Source: Candidatus Rifleibacteriota bacterium
Lineage (GTDB): Bacteria; Muiribacteriota; Ozemobacteria; Ozemobacterales; Ozemobacteraceae
DNA length: 64,000 nt
Direction: 5' to 3'
NCBI GenBank assembly: GCA_012517355.1
Contig: JAAYVD010000025.1
Location: forward strand, 1-64,000
Position 1 is the stretch's first letter; each line of letters starts with the position of its first letter. The notes beneath the pieces were generated by a model. That model was not told the origin of the DNA. It did no database searches and was given only the letters and a program-made list of their open reading frames with translations. Below are positions 38,602-49,543 of this stretch, piece by piece. The position numbers and the translations under genes are program-made.

Positions 38602-41600
38602 TCAGACCACCTTGAAAACCTGAACCTCCAGGCTTTTGCCCTTGATGGCCACCTCTCCCAGGGCCTGGAGGGCAATCCCCTGGCCCCGGGCCCACCCTTC
38701 CACGGCGGCCCGGGTCGGGGCATCCACCAGGATGCCGCCGCCCCTCTCCTTGCCGGCCAGGTCGCACAGGCGGGAGGCCAGGTTGACCGGGTCGCCGATC
38801 ACGGTCTGTTCGAGCCGCACCTCGGGCACGCCAAGGATGCCCGACAGGACAGCCCCCTCCACTACGCCTATTCCCAGAGGTCCTGGCAGTACCGTCGCCG
38901 CTTTCTTCTCCGGCTGAAGGCCGGCCGGCCCCCCGACCGACGTGGCGGGTTCCATGGCCTGAGAGGGGTCCGGGGGCGAAGCCTCCCTCTCCCTCATCCA
39001 TCGGACCATGGCACGGGCGGCGGCCAGGGCTCCGGCCACCGCCCGGTCGCCTCCGGACTCTCCGGGTGCGGGGAAAAAGACCGCCAGGACCCGGTCGCCG
39101 ATGAATTTGTCGATTTCCCCGCCTTCCCGGCGGACGATTCTCGACATCGCCTCGAGATAGCGGTTCAGGTCGTCCACCAGGGATTCGGCGGGGCGGGTCG
39201 CCAGGGCATTCTTGAACCCTGCCAGCCCGGCGAACAGGATGACCGCCTGACGGCGCTCGCCCGCCCCGGACCGACGACGACGGGTTCCGTCGCGCACCGC
39301 CTCCCGCACCGACTCCGACACGAACCGCCGCAGGAGCCGGCCTTCCTGCACGCCCTGCACCATGGTATTGAAGGCCTGGGCGAGGAACCCGAACTCATCA
39401 TACCGGTCGATCCGGACCCGCACCTGGAAATTCCCGCGCATGACCTCCCGCGCCCCTTCCGACAGCGATTCCAACGGGTCGAGCACCCGCCGTGCCACCC
39501 CCAGGCCCAGCACCAGGGCCGCCCCCACCAGCAGGGCAAGGAAATCGAGGCGCCCGCGGATCTCCGCCATGGCCTGCGTCCGCGCCTTTCCCAGAGACGC
39601 CCCGACCTGGAAGATGAAGTTCCTGATCCGTTCCCCGGTCGCCGCCACCCGGAGTTCCTGCGATTCGCCCCGGCCCACGACCTCCCACCAGGTTCCGCCC
39701 GCGGCCAGGGCCAGGGCGGCCAGTTCGCCATGGCGCGGAGTGCCATAGGCGTAGGTCTCGTTGATCTTGAAGTCACTGCCGTCGTAGCGGATGACCCAGA
39801 ACGGCGGCGAGAGAAACACCGACGGCCGGTCGAGAAAGGAGACCCGGAACCGGGCCTCGTGCGTACCGGCCGCCTCACCCACCTTCCTCCACAGGGTGAA
39901 CAGGTGGAAGGCTTCGCTTTCCCGTTCCCAGTTGGCCTGCAGGATCGCCCGGGGGGTGCCCTGGATCCAGACGTGGTCCCGATAGATGGCGTTCTGCCGG
40001 GCGCCCAGCACCTGGATCTGGAGGGCCCGGGGGGCATACATCAGGTTGGCATAGTAGGCGGGCGGAGCCAGTTGCAGGAGGAAATCCCGCAGCTCCTCCT
40101 CCTGGTATCTCCGGGTGATGAGGAGGGCCTCGTCCCTGGGCGCGGATGCCCCCCCGCCGGAAGGGAGCAAGGGCTCGAGATCGGCCATCATGGCCCCCGT
40201 CAACAACCGCCAGAACGTCGCCGCCCGGGCCTGGCCCTCGGGGAGGGACGGGTAGGAACACCACCAGTCGCCGACCCCGAACAGGTTCACTCCGCCCACA
40301 TCCACTCCATGCCGGAACGCTGCGGCCAGGGCCATCTGCAGGGCCGACACCCCTTCCGCCCCGTCCGGGCGGGCCGGCCCCGACACCCGGGCGATGACCT
40401 GGCGCAGCACCGGGTGATGGGAAAGGGTATCCAGGCACCTTCCCATCCAGCCCGTGTAGAGCTCCCCGCCTTCGTCGATCCGCCGCACCAGGGAACGCAG
40501 GCGGTTCCTCTCCTCGACCAGCAGCCGGACCTGGTTTTCCTGCAACCGGCGGCCCAGGCCGGCCACCGCGACCAGCGAGGCGGGCAGGAACAACAGGAGG
40601 AAACCGCCCACCAACTGCCCACGCAGGGAGGGCACCGGCACCGTTCGGAAGATCACGAGGTGGGCCAGCAGCAGGATGGTCAGGCATACCCAGGCCTGCG
40701 TCACCACCTGGAGAAGCAGCCGGGGCAGCCGGGCCGGGCCCGCCGCCCGCGTCAGGCGCCGGATGATCCGGAACGGTCGGGAAACCTCCCCTGCCAGCAT
40801 CCCCTGCGCCTCCAGCCGGGTTTCCGGCCCCGGCCCGGCACCCCGCACCGACCCGCCTGCGGCCGGTGAAGGCCCCCCTGCCGTACGCCGATCGGAAGTT
40901 CCACCCAACCCTCTGCGGCGGGGAGGGGGCATGGTCGACATCGGCCTGGTCGGGGTCATCCCTTTCCCCAGGAAAATCTCGGCCCCGCGCCGGCGGAAAT
41001 TCCGCCGCAGGCTCGTCATTCCCTGGTCGAAGGTGAGATCGGTCTGGGGAAGGGCCACCACCACGTGGCCCAGCAGGTGGTTCCAATGCCCCCGCAGGTC
41101 GGCGTTCCAGTCGGTCTCGTCCATCCGGTCCCGTGCCCCCGACTGGTCGAACCCGGCCTCGAAGAACGGCTCCCAGAACAAAACCCCTCCCAGGCCGGCC
41201 AGGGCCGAATCGGCGAATCGTGCATACCGGCCGCGGACGAACTCGTCCCAGTTTCCTGCCAGCACCCCGGCCTGGATCAGGACCCGGGCCTTCCAGTCCC
41301 CTTCGTTACCCATCGTGACCCGGCACAAAGTCCCGGTGAAGTGGGAAATGACCGCCTCGACCCCCCTTGCCTGGAGGGGCCCGACCGCCGCGATGCCGGA
41401 AGGGCTTCCCCTTTGCCGCCACGGATGGCGGCGCGAAACGCCCGCTTCGCGCATCGCCAGGGGGCCGTCCTCGGCGAACAGGCGGGCGGCCCAACAGTCG
41501 GGGCCGACCTGCTGGGGATCGAGGTAGGGCTGGTGCTCGAGCACCGCCCAATGCAACCGGGGAAACCTCCTCTGCCAGGCCTGCAGGGTGCGGGCCAGGG

Positions 41601-44600
41601 CGGCCAGCAGCATCGTCGTATCGGCCGAGGCGGGAAGGCGGAGGCGCGTTTCCTGCAGGGACCGGCGCAGATCGAGGGCGATCTCGGCATCGGGAACCAG
41701 GCCGGCGCCGGCCAGCATCAGATCACGCGACAGGCGGCCCCGCTCCAGCAGGATCTCCTTTTCCCTCCAGTCGTCCTGGAGATGCCGGCCGCCCCCGGCG
41801 GCCAGGCCGAACACCCCCAACCACACCCCCCCCGCCAGAACGGCCGCCACCCACTTCCCCCACCGCGTCTCCCCATAACCTGCCACCACGGTCCGGGGGA
41901 CGGAGCCGACCGACACGATGTCGGCCATACCCCTTTGCCGCCACGGATGGCGGTGCGAAACGCCAGTTTCGCGCACCGCAAAGGGGCCCTCCCCCGGACC
42001 GTCCTGATCGGCAGGGCCTGTCGTCGGGAGGGACCCGACCGCCCCCCCTCCCGCCGCGGCCGCCAACGCCCCCGACGATGGCGGATCGACGGTGGTCACC
42101 CCGGCTTCCCAGGCGTCCGGTTCCCCCGCCACCGGGGTCCAGGCGGCCACCGCTTCGCCCAGGGCCCCCCGGACCCGGCCGGACACGACGATGGGAACCT
42201 GGCGGGCCTTCTTCGAGGCCCCTTCCAGGGCCGCCGCCTCGGCGATCGGGTCGCCCAGCAGAGAGAAGTCGAGCCGCACCTCGGGATCCCCCAGCACGCC
42301 GGTCAGGGCCTCCCCTGCCTGGATGCCGATGCCGATGCGGTAGGGGAAGACCCCCGCCCCCCGACGTTCCTCCTGGATCCCCTCGTGGGCCGCCAGCATG
42401 GCCCGGGCGGCCCCCAGGGCGGCCAGGGTCGGGGAAGGCGGGGTCCCCTCGAGGAAGACGGCCTGGATGGCATCGCCGATGAACCGGTCGACCACCCCCC
42501 CGTGGGCGTGGATGGCGGCGGTCATCGCCTGGAGATGGCGGTTGAGGGCCAGGAACACCCGTTCGGGCGGATGCGCCTCGCTGATCGTCGTGAACTCCCG
42601 GATGTCCGACACCAGCACCACCACCGGCCGCCGGCTGCCGCGCACGGCCTGGTCGAGTTCCCCGGCCCGCAAGGCCTTCCGCAGCTGCGGGGAGACGAAA
42701 TCCTGCAGACGGACCTTCTCCCGCAGCCAGGCGGTCATGGCGTCGAGCGTGCGCATCGTCTGGCCCAGTTCGTCGCCCCGGTCGCTGGCCAGGCGGAAAT
42801 CCAGATCCTGCATGATGATCCGCTGCAATCCCGCCGTCATCGCCCCGACCGGCCGGACCAGGCGCCGGATCAGCCACCAGCCGAGACCGGCCATCATGCC
42901 CAGGATTCCCCCGAGGAGGGCCAGCAGGGCCAGACGCTCGGCCTGCAGGCGATCCCGGACGGCCCGCAGACTGAGACGCGCGACCACCGTCATGTCGGGA
43001 AGGGCGGGAGTGGAGGACACCATGACGAGATGCCGGCCGCCAGGCGGGGAGAGGAAACGGGTGGTTCCCGTGTAGATCCGGTTCAGGCGTGCCAGTTCGT
43101 CGGCGCCGGCGACCGTGGTGGCCAGGCACCGCTGGAGGCGGCCGTGGGCCCGGAAAACGGCGAGGTCGCAGCCGTATTCCCGGGCCAGGCGGGGGACCGT
43201 CCGGCGCAGATCCTCGGCGAACGAGGGGATGGGATCCCAGATGGCACCGAGCAGGAAGCGGACGCGGGTGCCGATGTGCACCCGCCGCAGTGAGACCGAA
43301 AACCGCTCATCCCCCACCTCGAGGGTGTTCAGCTGGGTCTCCTGCTCAACCCGCGCGAAGGCGTGGGGTGGCATCAGGGAGTTCAACAGGGCCCGGGTGG
43401 CGTTGGAAAAAGAGGCGACCGGGAACTCACGACCCAGCGCAGGGTCGTTCCTGACCAGGTTTTCCTCCCCCTGGTGGCCGATCAGCTCGAGCATCGGCTC
43501 CACCAGTTCGTGGGGGAGACCGAGCGAATCGACCTTCCGTCGGAACCCGCCCGGCCCCATGACCAGTACCCCCCCCTTGTCCCCGCGCCGCGGGAACAGC
43601 TGCCGGTGGGCGGCGGCCAACGGCCCGGTCCCCGGGTCGTCGAGCCGCTGCATGGTCGAGAACTCCTCCCCGAGGCCCGGCCGGGCCGCGAGCGCACCCA
43701 GGTTCGCCGCGAACTCCCCCAGGCCGGCCGACCATTTCCCCTCGATCGCCTGGCCGACCCGGGTCAACTCCTGCCGGGCCTGTTCGAGGAGGTTCGCTTC
43801 GAGATCGGCCCGGATCCGTTCGCCCCCTTCCAGGAGGAGGAGACAGGGAATGGCCGCCAGCAGGGCGAGCCACAGGGCCATCTGCACCCGGAAGCCGGGC
43901 GTGGGAAGGTCGCCGAACCACCAGGTGCGCACCAGGACCAGGACCCAGAACGCAAGCCAGACCCCCCTGGCCACGGCCGCCAGCGCGGCGGCCAGGGACG
44001 CGGGGGCCCGGGGGGCCGGGCCGACCAGCATCCCGACCGTCCCCAGGGAGGGTGGCAGGCGGACCAGGCGCCCCCATGTTCCGGCGGCCAGCTCCAGGCG
44101 TTCATCCAGGCGGTCGGCCAGCAGACGGGGATGGCCGAAGAACCAGGAGCTGCTGGCGTCCGGATAGATCGGGGCCTGGGAAGCCCCCCCCCTGAGGGAG
44201 CGGGGCGCTGGAACGGAGCCCATCTCACGGGACAGGAACCGGAGGACCTCCTGGCGACGTCCCCCCTGGATGTCCGGGTGAAGCCAGGCCCGGCGCCGGA
44301 CCGGCGGCAGGCCGGGCAGGTCGACGAAGAGCGGCCGGAGGCCCGGGGTGGGTCCGCGGCGCGACCAGCCGGCGAGGCAGAATCGAAGCCCCTGCCAGCG
44401 ATCGGTGGCCCGGATCGGCTGCACCAGCAGGAACATCCGGGTCAGCCCGCCCGGGGGCCCGATCAGTCCCCAGCTCATCAGGGCATAGGTCCCCTGGAAG
44501 ATGACGGAAAGGACCTTCCCCTCCTGGTCGGGTGCCAGCAGCGACAGGGTGAATCCCGGGCCGAAGAAGGCCCGGGCCCGGTTCCGCCAGAGGGGCCCCA

Positions 44601-45144
44601 GCAGGTCGTTGGTCTGCCGGCCGGCGCATCGCCCCACCTCGCGGAACAGGCGCGAGAAGAAGGAACCGAGCGAACGTTCCAGGCCCGGGCCCGTCAGCAG
44701 GACCGGGGGCCCCTCCAGCGAGGGGTCGGGGCAGGTGAAGACCCAGATCCGGGGCGCGGGAAGCCCCGGCAGGGCGGCCGCCCGCACCGCCCGCGCGAGG
44801 GTTTCCTCCTCGGCCGCGGGGTGACCGGGCCGGGGCGAGAGGGCCCGCCGCAACCGGTCGGCGGCCCGGGCGACCCAGAACTCCGGTTCCGCCTCGCGGC
44901 GCAGCCGGATTCCCAGCGGTTCGGTGCGGGCCTGCCAGTCGCGGACCTGCTCCCCGACCGCCCGCTGGGCCTGCTCGCGGGCGATCCCCTCCAGGAGCAC
45001 CAGGGGGATCAGGGACAGCAGCAGAGGCAGCAGCAGCCCGCGCACCCCGGCCCAGCCGGGCCGGGCGGGGCCCGCCGCGGCGGCATGGTGTTCCGTGGAC
45101 AGGCCCAGACCCTCCCTTCGTGGCGTGGTCTCCCACTGTAGCAC
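38602..45144 (-). CDS. giant two-headed class III nucleotidyl cyclase, M1-C1-M2-C2 layout
   Basis: 2180 codons without a stop. Half 1: membrane helix (about 35-54), large outer region, more helices (about 385-445), outer domain, helix plus HAMP (about 738-802), cyclase domain C1 (about 835-1010). Half 2: helix (about 1095-1117), helix pair (about 1478-1532), outer domain, helix plus HAMP (about 1865-1930), cyclase domain C2 (about 1962-2180). C1 keeps both metal aspartates, D847 (VSDIREFT) and D891 (FIGDAIQ), but the transition-state Asn and Arg are A968 and A972. C2 has G1973 for the first aspartate, keeps D2017, and has substrate Lys K2013, T2114, N2121 and R2125. The 44-residue spacing is the same in both. 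Together they would form one composite active site, probably making cAMP. Two R1 repeats lie in frame. The start (GTG 45144) is uncertain because no ribosome site is visible. Confidence 0.85.
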   Translation of the reverse strand: MLQWETTPRREGLGLSTEHHAAAAGPARPGWAGVRGLLLPLLLSLIPLVLLEGIAREQAQRAVGEQVRDWQARTEPLGIRLRREAEPEFWVARAADRLRRALSPRPGHPAAEEETLARAVRAAALPGLPAPRIWVFTCPDPSLEGPPVLLTGPGLERSLGSFFSRLFREVGRCAGRQTNDLLGPLWRNRARAFFGPGFTLSLLAPDQEGKVLSVIFQGTYALMSWGLIGPPGGLTRMFLLVQPIRATDRWQGLRFCLAGWSRRGPTPGLRPLFVDLPGLPPVRRRAWLHPDIQGGRRQEVLRFLSREMGSVPAPRSLRGGASQAPIYPDASSSWFFGHPRLLADRLDERLELAAGTWGRLVRLPPSLGTVGMLVGPAPRAPASLAAALAAVARGVWLAFWVLVLVRTWWFGDLPTPGFRVQMALWLALLAAIPCLLLLEGGERIRADLEANLLEQARQELTRVGQAIEGKWSAGLGEFAANLGALAARPGLGEEFSTMQRLDDPGTGPLAAAHRQLFPRRGDKGGVLVMGPGGFRRKVDSLGLPHELVEPMLELIGHQGEENLVRNDPALGREFPVASFSNATRALLNSLMPPHAFARVEQETQLNTLEVGDERFSVSLRRVHIGTRVRFLLGAIWDPIPSFAEDLRRTVPRLAREYGCDLAVFRAHGRLQRCLATTVAGADELARLNRIYTGTTRFLSPPGGRHLVMVSSTPALPDMTVVARLSLRAVRDRLQAERLALLALLGGILGMMAGLGWWLIRRLVRPVGAMTAGLQRIIMQDLDFRLASDRGDELGQTMRTLDAMTAWLREKVRLQDFVSPQLRKALRAGELDQAVRGSRRPVVVLVSDIREFTTISEAHPPERVFLALNRHLQAMTAAIHAHGGVVDRFIGDAIQAVFLEGTPPSPTLAALGAARAMLAAHEGIQEERRGAGVFPYRIGIGIQAGEALTGVLGDPEVRLDFSLLGDPIAEAAALEGASKKARQVPIVVSGRVRGALGEAVAAWTPVAGEPDAWEAGVTTVDPPSSGALAAAAGGGAVGSLPTTGPADQDGPGEGPFAVRETGVSHRHPWRQRGMADIVSVGSVPRTVVAGYGETRWGKWVAAVLAGGVWLGVFGLAAGGGRHLQDDWREKEILLERGRLSRDLMLAGAGLVPDAEIALDLRRSLQETRLRLPASADTTMLLAALARTLQAWQRRFPRLHWAVLEHQPYLDPQQVGPDCWAARLFAEDGPLAMREAGVSRRHPWRQRGSPSGIAAVGPLQARGVEAVISHFTGTLCRVTMGNEGDWKARVLIQAGVLAGNWDEFVRGRYARFADSALAGLGGVLFWEPFFEAGFDQSGARDRMDETDWNADLRGHWNHLLGHVVVALPQTDLTFDQGMTSLRRNFRRRGAEIFLGKGMTPTRPMSTMPPPRRRGLGGTSDRRTAGGPSPAAGGSVRGAGPGPETRLEAQGMLAGEVSRPFRIIRRLTRAAGPARLPRLLLQVVTQAWVCLTILLLAHLVIFRTVPVPSLRGQLVGGFLLLFLPASLVAVAGLGRRLQENQVRLLVEERNRLRSLVRRIDEGGELYTGWMGRCLDTLSHHPVLRQVIARVSGPARPDGAEGVSALQMALAAAFRHGVDVGGVNLFGVGDWWCSYPSLPEGQARAATFWRLLTGAMMADLEPLLPSGGGASAPRDEALLITRRYQEEELRDFLLQLAPPAYYANLMYAPRALQIQVLGARQNAIYRDHVWIQGTPRAILQANWERESEAFHLFTLWRKVGEAAGTHEARFRVSFLDRPSVFLSPPFWVIRYDGSDFKINETYAYGTPRHGELAALALAAGGTWWEVVGRGESQELRVAATGERIRNFIFQVGASLGKARTQAMAEIRGRLDFLALLVGAALVLGLGVARRVLDPLESLSEGAREVMRGNFQVRVRIDRYDEFGFLAQAFNTMVQGVQEGRLLRRFVSESVREAVRDGTRRRRSGAGERRQAVILFAGLAGFKNALATRPAESLVDDLNRYLEAMSRIVRREGGEIDKFIGDRVLAVFFPAPGESGGDRAVAGALAAARAMVRWMREREASPPDPSQAMEPATSVGGPAGLQPEKKAATVLPGPLGIGVVEGAVLSGILGVPEVRLEQTVIGDPVNLASRLCDLAGKERGGGILVDAPTRAAVEGWARGQGIALQALGEVAIKGKSLEVQVFKVV
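41381..41467 (-). repeat. palindromic repeat R1, copy B (in frame in cyclase gene)
   Basis: Intact R1 on the coding strand: GGCCCCCTGGCGATGCGCG, the GAAGCGGGCGTTTCGC arm, the CCGCCATCCGTGGCGG arm and CAAAGGGG. It adds about 29 residues (about 1227-1255) containing MREAGVSRRHPWRQRG to the outer loop of cyclase half 2 without breaking the frame. Confidence 0.88.
41905..41989 (-). repeat. palindromic repeat R1, copy C (in frame in cyclase gene)
   Basis: Intact R1, same orientation and reading frame as copy B. It encodes about 29 residues (about 1053-1081) containing VRETGVSHRHPWRQRG followed by ADIVSVGS, in the linker between cyclase domain C1 and the next membrane helix. The arms GCGAAAC-GTTTCGC, CCGCCATCCGTGGCGG and CCGACATCGTGTCGG are all present. 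Confidence 0.9.
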
Positions 45145-45224: not shown

Positions 45225-45923
45225 ATGCTCACCCCGGTGCGAACCACCCCGCCCCCCGCCTACCCGGGAGCCGCCCCGCAACGCCGGTTCTTCCACACCC
45301 TGGCGCTGTTCCTGCATGGGAAGGTCACCCTGCCCGTCTGCGTCTTCCTGGTGCTGTCCGCCGCCCAGGTCTTCGCCGAGTCGCCCCGGCCGGCCGGCCC
45401 CGCCGGGGGCGATGGCGGGAACCTGGTCGTCGCCCAGGTGCAGGAACCCGCCTGCCGCGGCAAGATCGCCCTCGACCCGCCACCCTGCAAGGGCGACGTG
45501 GCCATGCCCGAACCCCCACCCTGCTCGGGGGAGATCGCCCTGCCCGATCCCCCACCCTGCGCGGGGGTTCCGCGGCCCGACCCGTTCCCGCCCCAGCCCG
45601 AACCGGCTCCCGAGATCTCCCTGCGCGCCCTGATCGCCCGGCCACGCGACTTCGTCGACCGCCGGGTGCTGGTGCGGGGCATCCTGGGCCGGGCCGGCGA
45701 CGGCAGCCTGTTCGAGAATGGATATTACCTCTACATCGACCGCCCGCGCACCGCCGCCGGGGAGTTCTTCGGCTGCCCGCTGGTGGGCGGCTTCCCCGCC
45801 CCCGCCGAAGGCACCCCGGTCACCGTGACCGGCCGCGTCGTCCGGCGCCACGAAGGGCCGGGCGGGCGACGCCGGCCGGGCACCTACTACGTGCTGCAGA
45901 TCGAGAGCGTCTCCCGCCAGTGA
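45225..45923 (+). CDS. exported Cys-repeat protein with C-terminal OB-like domain
   Basis: 232 residues. A long N-terminus with one hydrophobic segment (VTLPVCVFLVLSAAQVFA) serves as signal peptide. Residues about 74-120 hold four cysteines spaced 11-12 apart in a repeat of the form PPC-x-G-(D/E)-(V/I)-A-(M/L)-P-(E/D)-P. The C-terminal 100 residues (ISLRALIARPRDFVDRRVLVRG... to YYVLQIESVS) look like an OB-type beta barrel. A radical SAM/SPASM gene follows after 7 bp, which makes the Cys repeats a candidate modification substrate, perhaps Cys-to-Asp/Glu thioethers. That link is inferred from adjacency only. The repeat is also visible in DNA as a 36-bp tandem. Confidence 0.7.
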   Translation: MLTPVRTTPPPAYPGAAPQRRFFHTLALFLHGKVTLPVCVFLVLSAAQVFAESPRPAGPAGGDGGNLVVAQVQEPACRGKIALDPPPCKGDVAMPEPPPCSGEIALPDPPPCAGVPRPDPFPPQPEPAPEISLRALIARPRDFVDRRVLVRGILGRAGDGSLFENGYYLYIDRPRTAAGEFFGCPLVGGFPAPAEGTPVTVTGRVVRRHEGPGGRRRPGTYYVLQIESVSRQ

Positions 45924-45930
45924 GGCCGCC

Positions 45931-47025
45931 ATCAAGCTCGCCATCCACCTGACCCACGACTGCAACCTGCGTTGCACCTACTGCTACGTGGGCCGCAAGT
46001 ACGGCCGGGCCATGGACCGCGCCACCGCCGAGGCCGCCGTGCGGTTCGGGTTCGCCCACAGCACCCGCACCGTCGACCTGTCGTTCTTCGGCGGGGAACC
46101 GCTGCTGGAAAAGGACCTGCTGCTCCACACCGCCGACTACGCCCTGGCCTGGCAGCGCGACCAGGCACCCGGCAAGCCGCTCCGGCTGTTCGTCACCACC
46201 AACGGCCTCGGTCTCGACGAGGCGTTCCTGCAGGAGGCCCGCCGCCGCGGCCTGATCGTCTCGCTCAGCCTCGACGGCCACGGCCGCGGGCACGACCTGA
46301 CCCGCACCCTGCCCGAGGGGGGAGGGTCGTTCGCCGCCCTCGAGCCGAAGTTTCCGGCCATCCTGGCCGTCTTTCCCTGGATCGAAGTGCTGGTCACCGT
46401 CACCCCCCGCAACCTGCCGTTCCTCGGCGAGGGGGTGGAAAAGCTCTACGCCTGCGGGTTCCGCAACTTCATCGTCGGCCCCAACTACGAGGAAGCCTGG
46501 GAAGAACCCGCCCTGCAGCGGCTGGAAGAGGAATACCGGCGGCTGGCCTCCTTTTACGAGGCCCGTTTCCGCGACGGACACTACATCTACCTCAGCCTGT
46601 TCGACACCAAGATCGCCGCCCACACCCGCACCCGGGGCGAGATCTGCTCCTGCTGCGACAAGAACGACGGCGAGATCGCGGTGGCCCCCTCGGGCAACAT
46701 CTACCCCTGCCTGCGGTTCGTCAAGGAGGACGCCGACCACGCCCTGGTGCTGGGCACCCTGGCCACCGGCCTCGACCGGAAGAAGCGGGCGAAGCTGATG
46801 CTCGAGGCCGGCCGGGAATGGCCCGAGTGCCTGGAATGCGCCTTCCGCGGCCGGTGTTTCCATTACTGCACCGCGGTCAACTTCAAGGTGACCGGGCGGT
46901 TCAACCAGCCCCCGGCCGTGCTGTGCCGCCAGGAGCAGGCGGCCATCCGGTGCGCCGACGAGGTGGCCGCCCGGCTGCACGCGGCCGGCAACCCGCTGTT
47001 CCACGAACGCTTCTACCGGAAGTGA
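45931..47025 (+). CDS. radical SAM/SPASM protein, non-standard start
   Basis: About 364 residues. Radical SAM cluster CNLRCTYCY lies at about residues 11-19; FFGGEPLL and SLDGHGRGHDL are the expected core motifs. The SPASM auxiliary-cluster region has CSCCDKNDGEIAVAPSGNIYPC and later ECLECAFRGRCFHYC. Such enzymes modify peptides or proteins. No ATG, GTG or TTG exists in frame between the upstream stop (45826-45828) and a GTG at 45988, which lies after the Cys motif. Homologs begin about where ATC 45931 is (ATC-Lys-Leu-Ala-Ile-His), with GAGG just before, so initiation at ATC is the simplest reading. A mutated ATG or base error is the alternative. It follows the Cys-repeat protein gene after 7 bp. 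Confidence 0.8.
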   Translation: MKLAIHLTHDCNLRCTYCYVGRKYGRAMDRATAEAAVRFGFAHSTRTVDLSFFGGEPLLEKDLLLHTADYALAWQRDQAPGKPLRLFVTTNGLGLDEAFLQEARRRGLIVSLSLDGHGRGHDLTRTLPEGGGSFAALEPKFPAILAVFPWIEVLVTVTPRNLPFLGEGVEKLYACGFRNFIVGPNYEEAWEEPALQRLEEEYRRLASFYEARFRDGHYIYLSLFDTKIAAHTRTRGEICSCCDKNDGEIAVAPSGNIYPCLRFVKEDADHALVLGTLATGLDRKKRAKLMLEAGREWPECLECAFRGRCFHYCTAVNFKVTGRFNQPPAVLCRQEQAAIRCADEVAARLHAAGNPLFHERFYRK

Positions 47026-48016: not shown

Positions 48017-49543
48017 TCAGCCGGCGGGCTCGTCCAGGCCGAAGAAACCGCGGATCTTGCTCATGATCGAGGATTTGCTCGCCACCAGGCGGGTGGCCCG
48101 GGTGGTGGCGTCGAGCTTTTCGAGAACGCTGTCGGTCTCGCTGCGCCGGCGGGCCAGGATGCCCGAGATCTCCTCGGTCAGGGCCGGGCGCATCTCGAGC
48201 ACCTGCCGAAAGATCTCCCGGTCGAGGCGGTAGGCCAGCACCGGGGTGGTGGCCACGACCGTGGCATGGCGCGGTTCCCCGGTCAACAGGCTCCATTCGC
48301 CAAAGAAGTTGCCCGGCCCCAGTTCGGCCACCTTGACCGGCTCGCCGTCCTTCGAGGCGACCGACACGTCGGCCCGCCCATCGGCCAGGATGTAGAGCCA
48401 GTGCGCCTCGGCGCCCTGCCGGGTCATGACCTCTCCGGCCATGAAGGGCGATTCGACGAGGTTGCCGGCGAGATGGGCGAGTTCCTCCTCCTGGAGGTTC
48501 TGGAACAGGTCGATCCGCTTCAGCATCTTGTGCCGCTCCCGCTGCGTCTGGCCCGCCAGGTTGGCCTTCCGCTCCTCGGTCAGCTTGGTCATGAACACGG
48601 CGTGCGCGGGGATCGACAGGGAGATCCCGTTGCGGTGCAGGGCGGCGGCGACCACCGTCCGCACCGCCGAGTCGGTGGGGTCGTCCACCGCCAGGTCGGT
48701 CAGCCAATAGCGGACCGCGTATCGGCACCAGCTTTCCTGGAAGTCCATGAGCAGGACGTTGGGGGCGGGGGTGCGGGCCACCCGGGGGAGATTGGCCCCG
48801 CCGAGGGCGGCGGTGACGACCTCGAGAACCCGGGTGGGGGGAAACCGGAAATCGACGTTGAACCAGACCCAACGGCGCCATTGCACCGGTTCCCCCTGCC
48901 GTTGCCCGAGAAGCATGACCCGGTTCTTGACCAACTGGCTGTTGGGCACCAGGATGGTCTCCCAGTTGCGGGTCTCGATGGCGGTGTAACGCCAGGTCGT
49001 CTCGAGGACCCGGCCGGACAGGTCGTCGACCTTGACCCAGTCGCCCACCCGCACCGAGCCGTCGATCTCGAGGGCGAGCCCGGCCAGGACGTTGCCGAGC
49101 GTGTCCTGCATGGCAAACCCGATGACGCCGGTCAGCACGGCCGAAGTGGCGATGATGCCGGTGAGGTTCACCCCGTTGGCCTGCAGGTGGTACATCCCCC
49201 AGATCACGGTCAGGACGGCCACGCAGACGTCGTGCAGGATGCGTGGGGGGTGCAGTCCCAACGCGGGGATGATGCTGCGCAGCATGGCCTGGCCGACCAG
49301 GGTGATGAAGGCAACCCCTTCCAGGAAGATCGAGACGCCGGCGACCGCGTCGGCCAGACGGTCGTATCCATACAAGGTCGGAAGATCGGCCAAGCACTGG
49401 CCGACGATGCCGGCCGTGAACGCTTTCAGGGAGAAGGCCAGGGGTTCGGGGGGCACCTGCCGCCGGAAGCGCAGGAGAAGGTAGATCACGACGAACACGG
49501 AGATGGACTGGGCGGCGGCGGAATGGAGATGCTGGAAACCCAT
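48017..49543 (-). CDS. MscS-type channel with cyclic-nucleotide-binding domain
   Basis: 508 residues. About four N-terminal membrane helices lead to the MscS pore helix and beta domain (GVIGFAMQDTLGNVLAGLALEIDGSVRVGDWVKV, about 130-165). After about residue 345 a cNMP-binding domain follows, with the phosphate-binding cassette FFGEWSLLTGEPRHATVVA retaining the conserved Glu and Arg, so it should bind cAMP or cGMP. This is the known family of bacterial cyclic-nucleotide-gated MscS relatives. The nearby two-headed cyclase could supply the ligand. The coiled, charged C-terminus ends in DEPAG. Confidence 0.92.
   Translation of the reverse strand: MGFQHLHSAAAQSISVFVVIYLLLRFRRQVPPEPLAFSLKAFTAGIVGQCLADLPTLYGYDRLADAVAGVSIFLEGVAFITLVGQAMLRSIIPALGLHPPRILHDVCVAVLTVIWGMYHLQANGVNLTGIIATSAVLTGVIGFAMQDTLGNVLAGLALEIDGSVRVGDWVKVDDLSGRVLETTWRYTAIETRNWETILVPNSQLVKNRVMLLGQRQGEPVQWRRWVWFNVDFRFPPTRVLEVVTAALGGANLPRVARTPAPNVLLMDFQESWCRYAVRYWLTDLAVDDPTDSAVRTVVAAALHRNGISLSIPAHAVFMTKLTEERKANLAGQTQRERHKMLKRIDLFQNLQEEELAHLAGNLVESPFMAGEVMTRQGAEAHWLYILADGRADVSVASKDGEPVKVAELGPGNFFGEWSLLTGEPRHATVVATTPVLAYRLDREIFRQVLEMRPALTEEISGILARRRSETDSVLEKLDATTRATRLVASKSSIMSKIRGFFGLDEPAG

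Follow-up and report, generated by a model that had tools for sequence, protein, structure and literature searches.

A fused two-headed class III cyclase of Riflebacteria with a predicted composite active site, and the family of complementary C1/C2 pairs to which it belongs

Descriptions of a class III cyclase site that is split between two unlike halves have so far been confined to animals and other eukaryotes. According to the prevailing view, class III cyclases work as homodimers in bacteria, and duplication and fusion to a pseudo-heterodimer took place in early eukaryotes. A 2022 review regarded fused dimeric class III adenylyl cyclases (ACs) as unknown in bacteria, and a 2025 paper described the bacterial enzymes as typically monomers that dimerise. 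Here we describe a 2180-residue protein with two cyclase domains (C1 and C2), encoded in a 64,000-nucleotide stretch of Candidatus Rifleibacteriota DNA (the whole of which is termed the window), and the pairs of related domains found in other genomes. Fused or split C1-C2 cyclases of Riflebacteria were not reported in the open-access literature that we searched.

Several described systems resemble the window protein in part. The mammalian transmembrane ACs (tmACs, AC1-AC9) share with it the order membrane-C1-membrane-C2 in one chain, metal aspartates in C1, base and transition-state residues in C2 and, as predicted for the window protein, one dead site. By contrast, the tmACs are class IIIa enzymes with 6+6 transmembrane (TM) helices, no HAMP domain and an aspartate in the base pocket, whereas the window protein is of class IIIb, with 4+4 predicted TM helices, outside domains, two HAMP domains and a threonine at the base position of C2. 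Soluble AC (sAC, ADCY10) likewise carries C1 and C2 in a single chain with one active site and a dead pseudo-symmetric site, the latter serving as the bicarbonate site (PMC4506562), but is cytosolic and without the membrane and HAMP parts found in the window protein. The bacterial class IIIb homodimers (CyaC, CyaB, OaPAC, bPAC and HAMP-linked cyclases) are nearest in the sequence and fold of their catalytic domains and share the HAMP coupling, yet they bear the full residue set in each monomer and thus two identical sites, unlike the window protein. Rv1625c/Cya of Mycobacterium, from which the tmACs have been proposed to derive, is also a membrane-anchored class III cyclase that needs to dimerise (PMC9433096), but it is a homodimer of single halves with six TM helices. 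Soluble guanylyl cyclase alpha/beta (PMC3591389) and the fungal NeoR rhodopsin-cyclases (PMC7655827) are obligatory heterodimers from separate genes, as would be the split riflebacterial and spirochaete pairs described below; they differ in being eukaryotic, in using GTP and in their sensors.

The reading frame of the window gene was open for 2180 codons (2208 from stop to stop). Its GC content at third codon positions was 87%, against a window value of 67%, which is what a real gene should show here, and we regard it as one. The true start may lie some tens of codons away from the GTG at 45144. Pfam searches matched two HAMP and two Guanylate_cyc domains, and profile PF00211 scored 57.6 bits in two stretches of the whole protein (curated cut-off 21.9) and 35.8 and 32.0 bits on the single catalytic domains. 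By a simple hydropathy scan, TM helices were predicted at residues 37-55, 387-405, 420-438 and 738-756 of the first half and at 1099-1117, 1480-1498, 1512-1530 and 1866-1884 of the second. Each half is thus predicted to have its own membrane helices, outer part and HAMP, as a preliminary description of this DNA had claimed, in the order TM, outside domain, TM, TM, outside domain, TM, HAMP and cyclase. The membrane parts (M1 and M2) showed weak colinear similarity to one another (25% over 156 residues, E 0.013), and the interval of about 900 residues from C1 to C2 held four TM helices. The sensor domains of M1 and M2 had no Pfam match, and their AlphaFold model was of low confidence.

Features of the window gene and of the repeat copies within it (coordinates in the window)
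Feature	Coordinates	Strand	Basis or remark
Whole gene, 2180 aa, M1-HAMP-C1-M2-HAMP-C2	38602..45144	-	Open frame, coding GC3, Pfam domains
M1: four predicted TM helices and two outside domains, residues ~30-756	42877..45057	-	Hydropathy scan; low-confidence AlphaFold model
First HAMP and linker, residues ~757-815	42700..42876	-	Pfam HAMP, two stretches
C1 catalytic domain, residues ~836-1028	42060..42640	-	Pfam Guanylate_cyc 839-981; residue table
M2: four predicted TM helices and two outside domains, residues ~1099-1884	39490..41850	-	Hydropathy scan; weak colinear similarity to M1
Second HAMP, residues 1883-1933	39340..39500	-	Pfam HAMP
C2 catalytic domain, residues ~1963-2180	38605..39260	-	Residue table and direct check
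Dispersed 63-nt repeat, in frame inside M2	41408..41470		
Second in-frame repeat copy, C1-M2 linker	41930..41992		89% identical

The catalytic residues of the two domains were tabulated and checked directly. C1 was found to keep both metal aspartates (D847 and D891) and to have alanines (A968 and A972) where Asn and Arg would stand, arginine (R887) instead of the base-contact lysine, serine (S961) instead of the threonine and no C-terminal phosphate lysine. C2 was found to have glycine (G1973) at the first metal position and to retain K2013, T2114, N2121, R2125 and the phosphate lysine K2168. The second metal aspartate of C2 (D2017) was still present, and its metal face is therefore half, not wholly, lost. 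All residues named in the preliminary description, and the spacing of 44 residues between the metal positions of both domains (847-891 and 1973-2017), were thereby borne out; R887, S961, D2017, K2168 and the missing phosphate lysine of C1 are additions to it. The full residue set of the homodimeric bacterial class III cyclases was complete in neither domain; a composite site would have all of it available (D847 and D891 with K2013, T2114, N2121, R2125 and K2168).

The window protein is very probably a membrane receptor-type class III AC that works as an obligate C1/C2 pseudo-heterodimer, with one active site that would convert ATP to cAMP and one dead site. By analogy to class III enzymology, C1 and C2, from one chain or from two neighbouring chains, would pack head to tail. 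C1 would bring the two metal-binding aspartates, and C2 would bring the phosphate lysine, a lysine and a threonine for reading adenine, and an asparagine and an arginine for stabilising the transition state. The one composite site so formed would cyclise ATP, the substrate suggested by the Lys/Thr of C2, and the symmetry-related site would be dead. Either of the HAMP-linked sensor halves could shift the C1-C2 geometry and, as M1 and M2 differ, one enzyme may integrate two inputs.

The preliminary description had proposed a survey of homologs for co-conservation of the two residue sets. Relatives were sampled by genome search, from stretches of genomes and by one scan of a named collection. A pair was defined by script as two domains in one open reading frame (ORF) or in adjacent ORFs of the same strand; domains were classed by their metal and Asn/Arg positions, and the Lys and Thr positions played no part. 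By this approach, 84 of the 88 fused or adjacent riflebacterial pairs were found to be strictly complementary, and a plain C1+C1, C2+C2 or full+full pair was found nowhere among the 88. The complementary pairs comprised 44 fused genes, in all of which C1 preceded C2, and split genes in the order C1 to C2 (24 pairs) or C2 to C1 (16 pairs), the reading frames of split partners mostly overlapping. In one of the 84 (L262) the script had combined domains of two successive fused genes, C2 from the first and C1 from the second, although a C1 and a C2 are also present within the fused ORF at that locus. The remaining four were two near misses (L248 and L263), one pair truncated where its stretch ended (L237) and a triple of order C1-C1-C2 (L041). 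In L041 three consecutive cyclase genes were of types C1, C1 and C2, and the two C1 partners may share the single C2. Of the 173 domains without a partner, 148 had the full set, and many of the others lay at the edge of the fetched stretch or contig. At L020 a C2-type gene had no partner within the fetched stretch; its C2 may need a partner from elsewhere.

Within the 84 pairs, both metal aspartates were present in every C1, and threonine, asparagine and arginine in every C2, with the lysine in 83. The first metal aspartate was missing from C2 in all pairs; the second was still there in 48. The C1 domains were without the Asn and/or the Arg and mostly without the phosphate lysine, their K and T positions being free to vary. 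Conservation of the two sets was thus near-perfect and supports a single active site formed by the metals of C1 and the base and transition-state residues of C2, and homologs in which both domains had regained the full set, which would undo the split site, were found in none of the 88 pairs. The pairs are related by descent and so are not 84 independent trials, but their recurrence in related genomes indicates that the division of residues in the window gene is not due to chance. Distances among C1 and among C2 domains were correlated across the 84 pairs (r 0.815; at most 0.145 after shuffling) and within the window's own genome (r 0.721; at most 0.363 after shuffling), and this divergence in step is as expected of partners inherited together. 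The order M1-C1-M2-C2, with metals in C1 and base and transition-state residues in C2, was common to the window gene and the 44 fused genes. Taken together, the two-headed cyclase of the preliminary description was confirmed in its residue split, but it is not one lone protein and belongs to a large family that includes split-gene versions.

The window's own 7.1 Mb genome was found to encode 87 class III cyclase domains, and most of the cyclase loci were tabulated at seven catalytic positions. About a dozen ORFs of 2100-2700 residues were fused like the window gene, and some 15 further loci consisted of two neighbouring ORFs of about 1000 residues each. In each complete fused or tandem pair, the two metal aspartates lay in one domain and the Lys/Thr/Asn/Arg in the other; the full-set cyclases were all unpaired. 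With dozens of similar cyclases per cell, fusion would guarantee the right partner and was plausibly selected for that reason. The 87 cyclase domains stand against 24 cyclic-nucleotide-binding domain matches in this genome, such that makers far outnumber readers of known type.

Fused genes were detected in many genomes of the window's family, including Ozemobacter sibiricus BY5 (L097) and Riflebacteria nHGRbin4 (L098), and were not found in the other riflebacterial families sampled, where split pairs were present instead. That the fusion might be an assembly artefact or a frameshift was rejected, as fused ORFs recur in many separate genomes. 'Cloacimonadota BROCD023' (L150) was considered as a case in another phylum and rejected, since it proved identical to G023, an entry assigned to the phylum of the window. 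To place the domains, a quick tree was built with the catalytic columns left out and with SH-aLRT values as support, some branches being long. In this tree, C1 and C2 of the short pair L277, from another riflebacterial family (G026), were sisters among full-set enzymes (SH-aLRT 97), and the Spirochaetaceae pairs L304 and L308, together with the C1/C2 genes L303 and L293, fell inside a clade of spirochaete full-set enzymes (SH-aLRT 99). These separate placements indicate that the C1/C2 split arose at least three times. The Spirochaetaceae C1/C2 genes were in tandem in L304 and L308; in G037 (L303 and L293) they stood at the ends of separate contigs. At L267, in another riflebacterial family, three C2-C1 gene pairs were arranged in tandem, with both C2 metal positions lost (G and K).

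The alternative to be taken most seriously, though unlikely, is that C1 and C2 do pair but make cGMP or some other cyclic nucleotide, or bind the nucleotide without cyclising it. Base choice of class III enzymes is not provable from sequence, and Cya2, a PDB relative of similar sequence, is a guanylyl cyclase. Against this stand the lysine and threonine of C2, near-invariant in the survey, as class IIIb adenylyl cyclases, CyaC among them, combine Lys with Thr. It is less probable still that both domains are decaying and that the protein is a degenerate pseudoenzyme, a receptor scaffold that makes no cyclic nucleotide. Each domain alone does lack essential residues, and the Pfam scores of the catalytic domains are low; decay, however, would not strike opposite faces in every pair while sparing the almost invariant residues of the composite site, and at least three lineages arrived at the split. 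We give very little credence to a dimer of chains that has two active sites and in which each domain can also homodimerise like the ordinary bacterial enzymes: although D2017 is kept in the window C2, and K, T or R in some C1 domains, neither homodimer would have a complete site, C2 being without the first metal aspartate and C1 without the Asn and/or Arg and mostly without the phosphate lysine. The obligate C1/C2 pseudo-heterodimer with one active site is the reading retained.

The 63-nt repeat of the window gene had at least 57 matches in the genome and enters the coding frames of several genes, much as the Rickettsia palindromic elements do. In L048 an in-frame copy (1663-1725) was found to replace the first metal strand of C2 while Lys, Thr, Asn and Arg remained intact, and this strand of C2 thus seems dispensable there.

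The relationship to known cyclases was examined by profile and structure comparison. The C1 and C2 profiles best matched bacterial class IIIb cyclases (CyaC, Cya2, CyaB and photoactivated cyclases), with E-values of 1e-29 to 1e-35 compared to about 1e-7 for isolated tmAC domains; C2 of ADCY10 was matched by the C2 profile at 1.8e-22, between the two. Folding alignments were made from sequences of the window and related loci and were hence shallow. For the homolog L098, AlphaFold gave confident cyclase folds of C1 and C2, while the model of the C1-M2-C2 span (pTM 0.47) did not fix the arrangement of C1 and C2. When this span was used with Foldseek, AC5 and AC9 ranked first and were aligned along the whole span at an rmsd of about 27 Å, which speaks for domain order only. 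A descent link to the eukaryotic tmACs was not supported by the profile searches. The likeness to tmACs in the preliminary description thus held for domain order and residue division and failed for descent, class IIIb being nearest and the layout being 4+4 TM helices with HAMP. That the bacterial fusion is the ancestor of the eukaryotic tmACs, or was acquired from a eukaryotic enzyme, is accordingly most improbable: the shared order and residue division and the Foldseek ranking are outweighed by the far better class IIIb scores of both domains, the helix number and HAMP domains, and threonine instead of aspartate at the base position. Our best reading is that the window protein would work like the mammalian tmACs and sAC but is of separate, bacterial class IIIb origin and a member of neither family.

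Other genes of the neighbourhood were noted. An MscS-type channel with a cyclic-nucleotide-binding domain (48017-49543, minus strand) lies 3 kb from the cyclase gene and is a possible cAMP effector of the cyclase. A radical SAM/SPASM protein (45829-47025, plus strand) resembles ranthipeptide and CXXX-repeat maturases, with scores below their cut-offs, and its neighbour (45225-45923, plus strand) has Cys-containing 12-residue repeats, PPPC.G..A.P; the two are possibly a maturase and its peptide precursor.

In wider terms, bacteria probably gave rise on at least three occasions to obligate pseudo-heterodimeric ACs with one active and one dead site, through duplication followed by the loss of opposite active-site faces. 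In the relatives of Ozemobacter this would have led to tmAC-like fusion and to dozens of two-sensor receptors per genome, whose dead site could turn into a regulatory pocket. The riflebacterial pairs offer new two-component cyclase parts for engineering. The Riflebacteria also provide dozens of natural replicates, with unpaired full-set, split complementary and fused cyclases in the same genomes and separate origins besides, and this makes it testable whether the asymmetry permits two inputs and whether the dead site binds a ligand.
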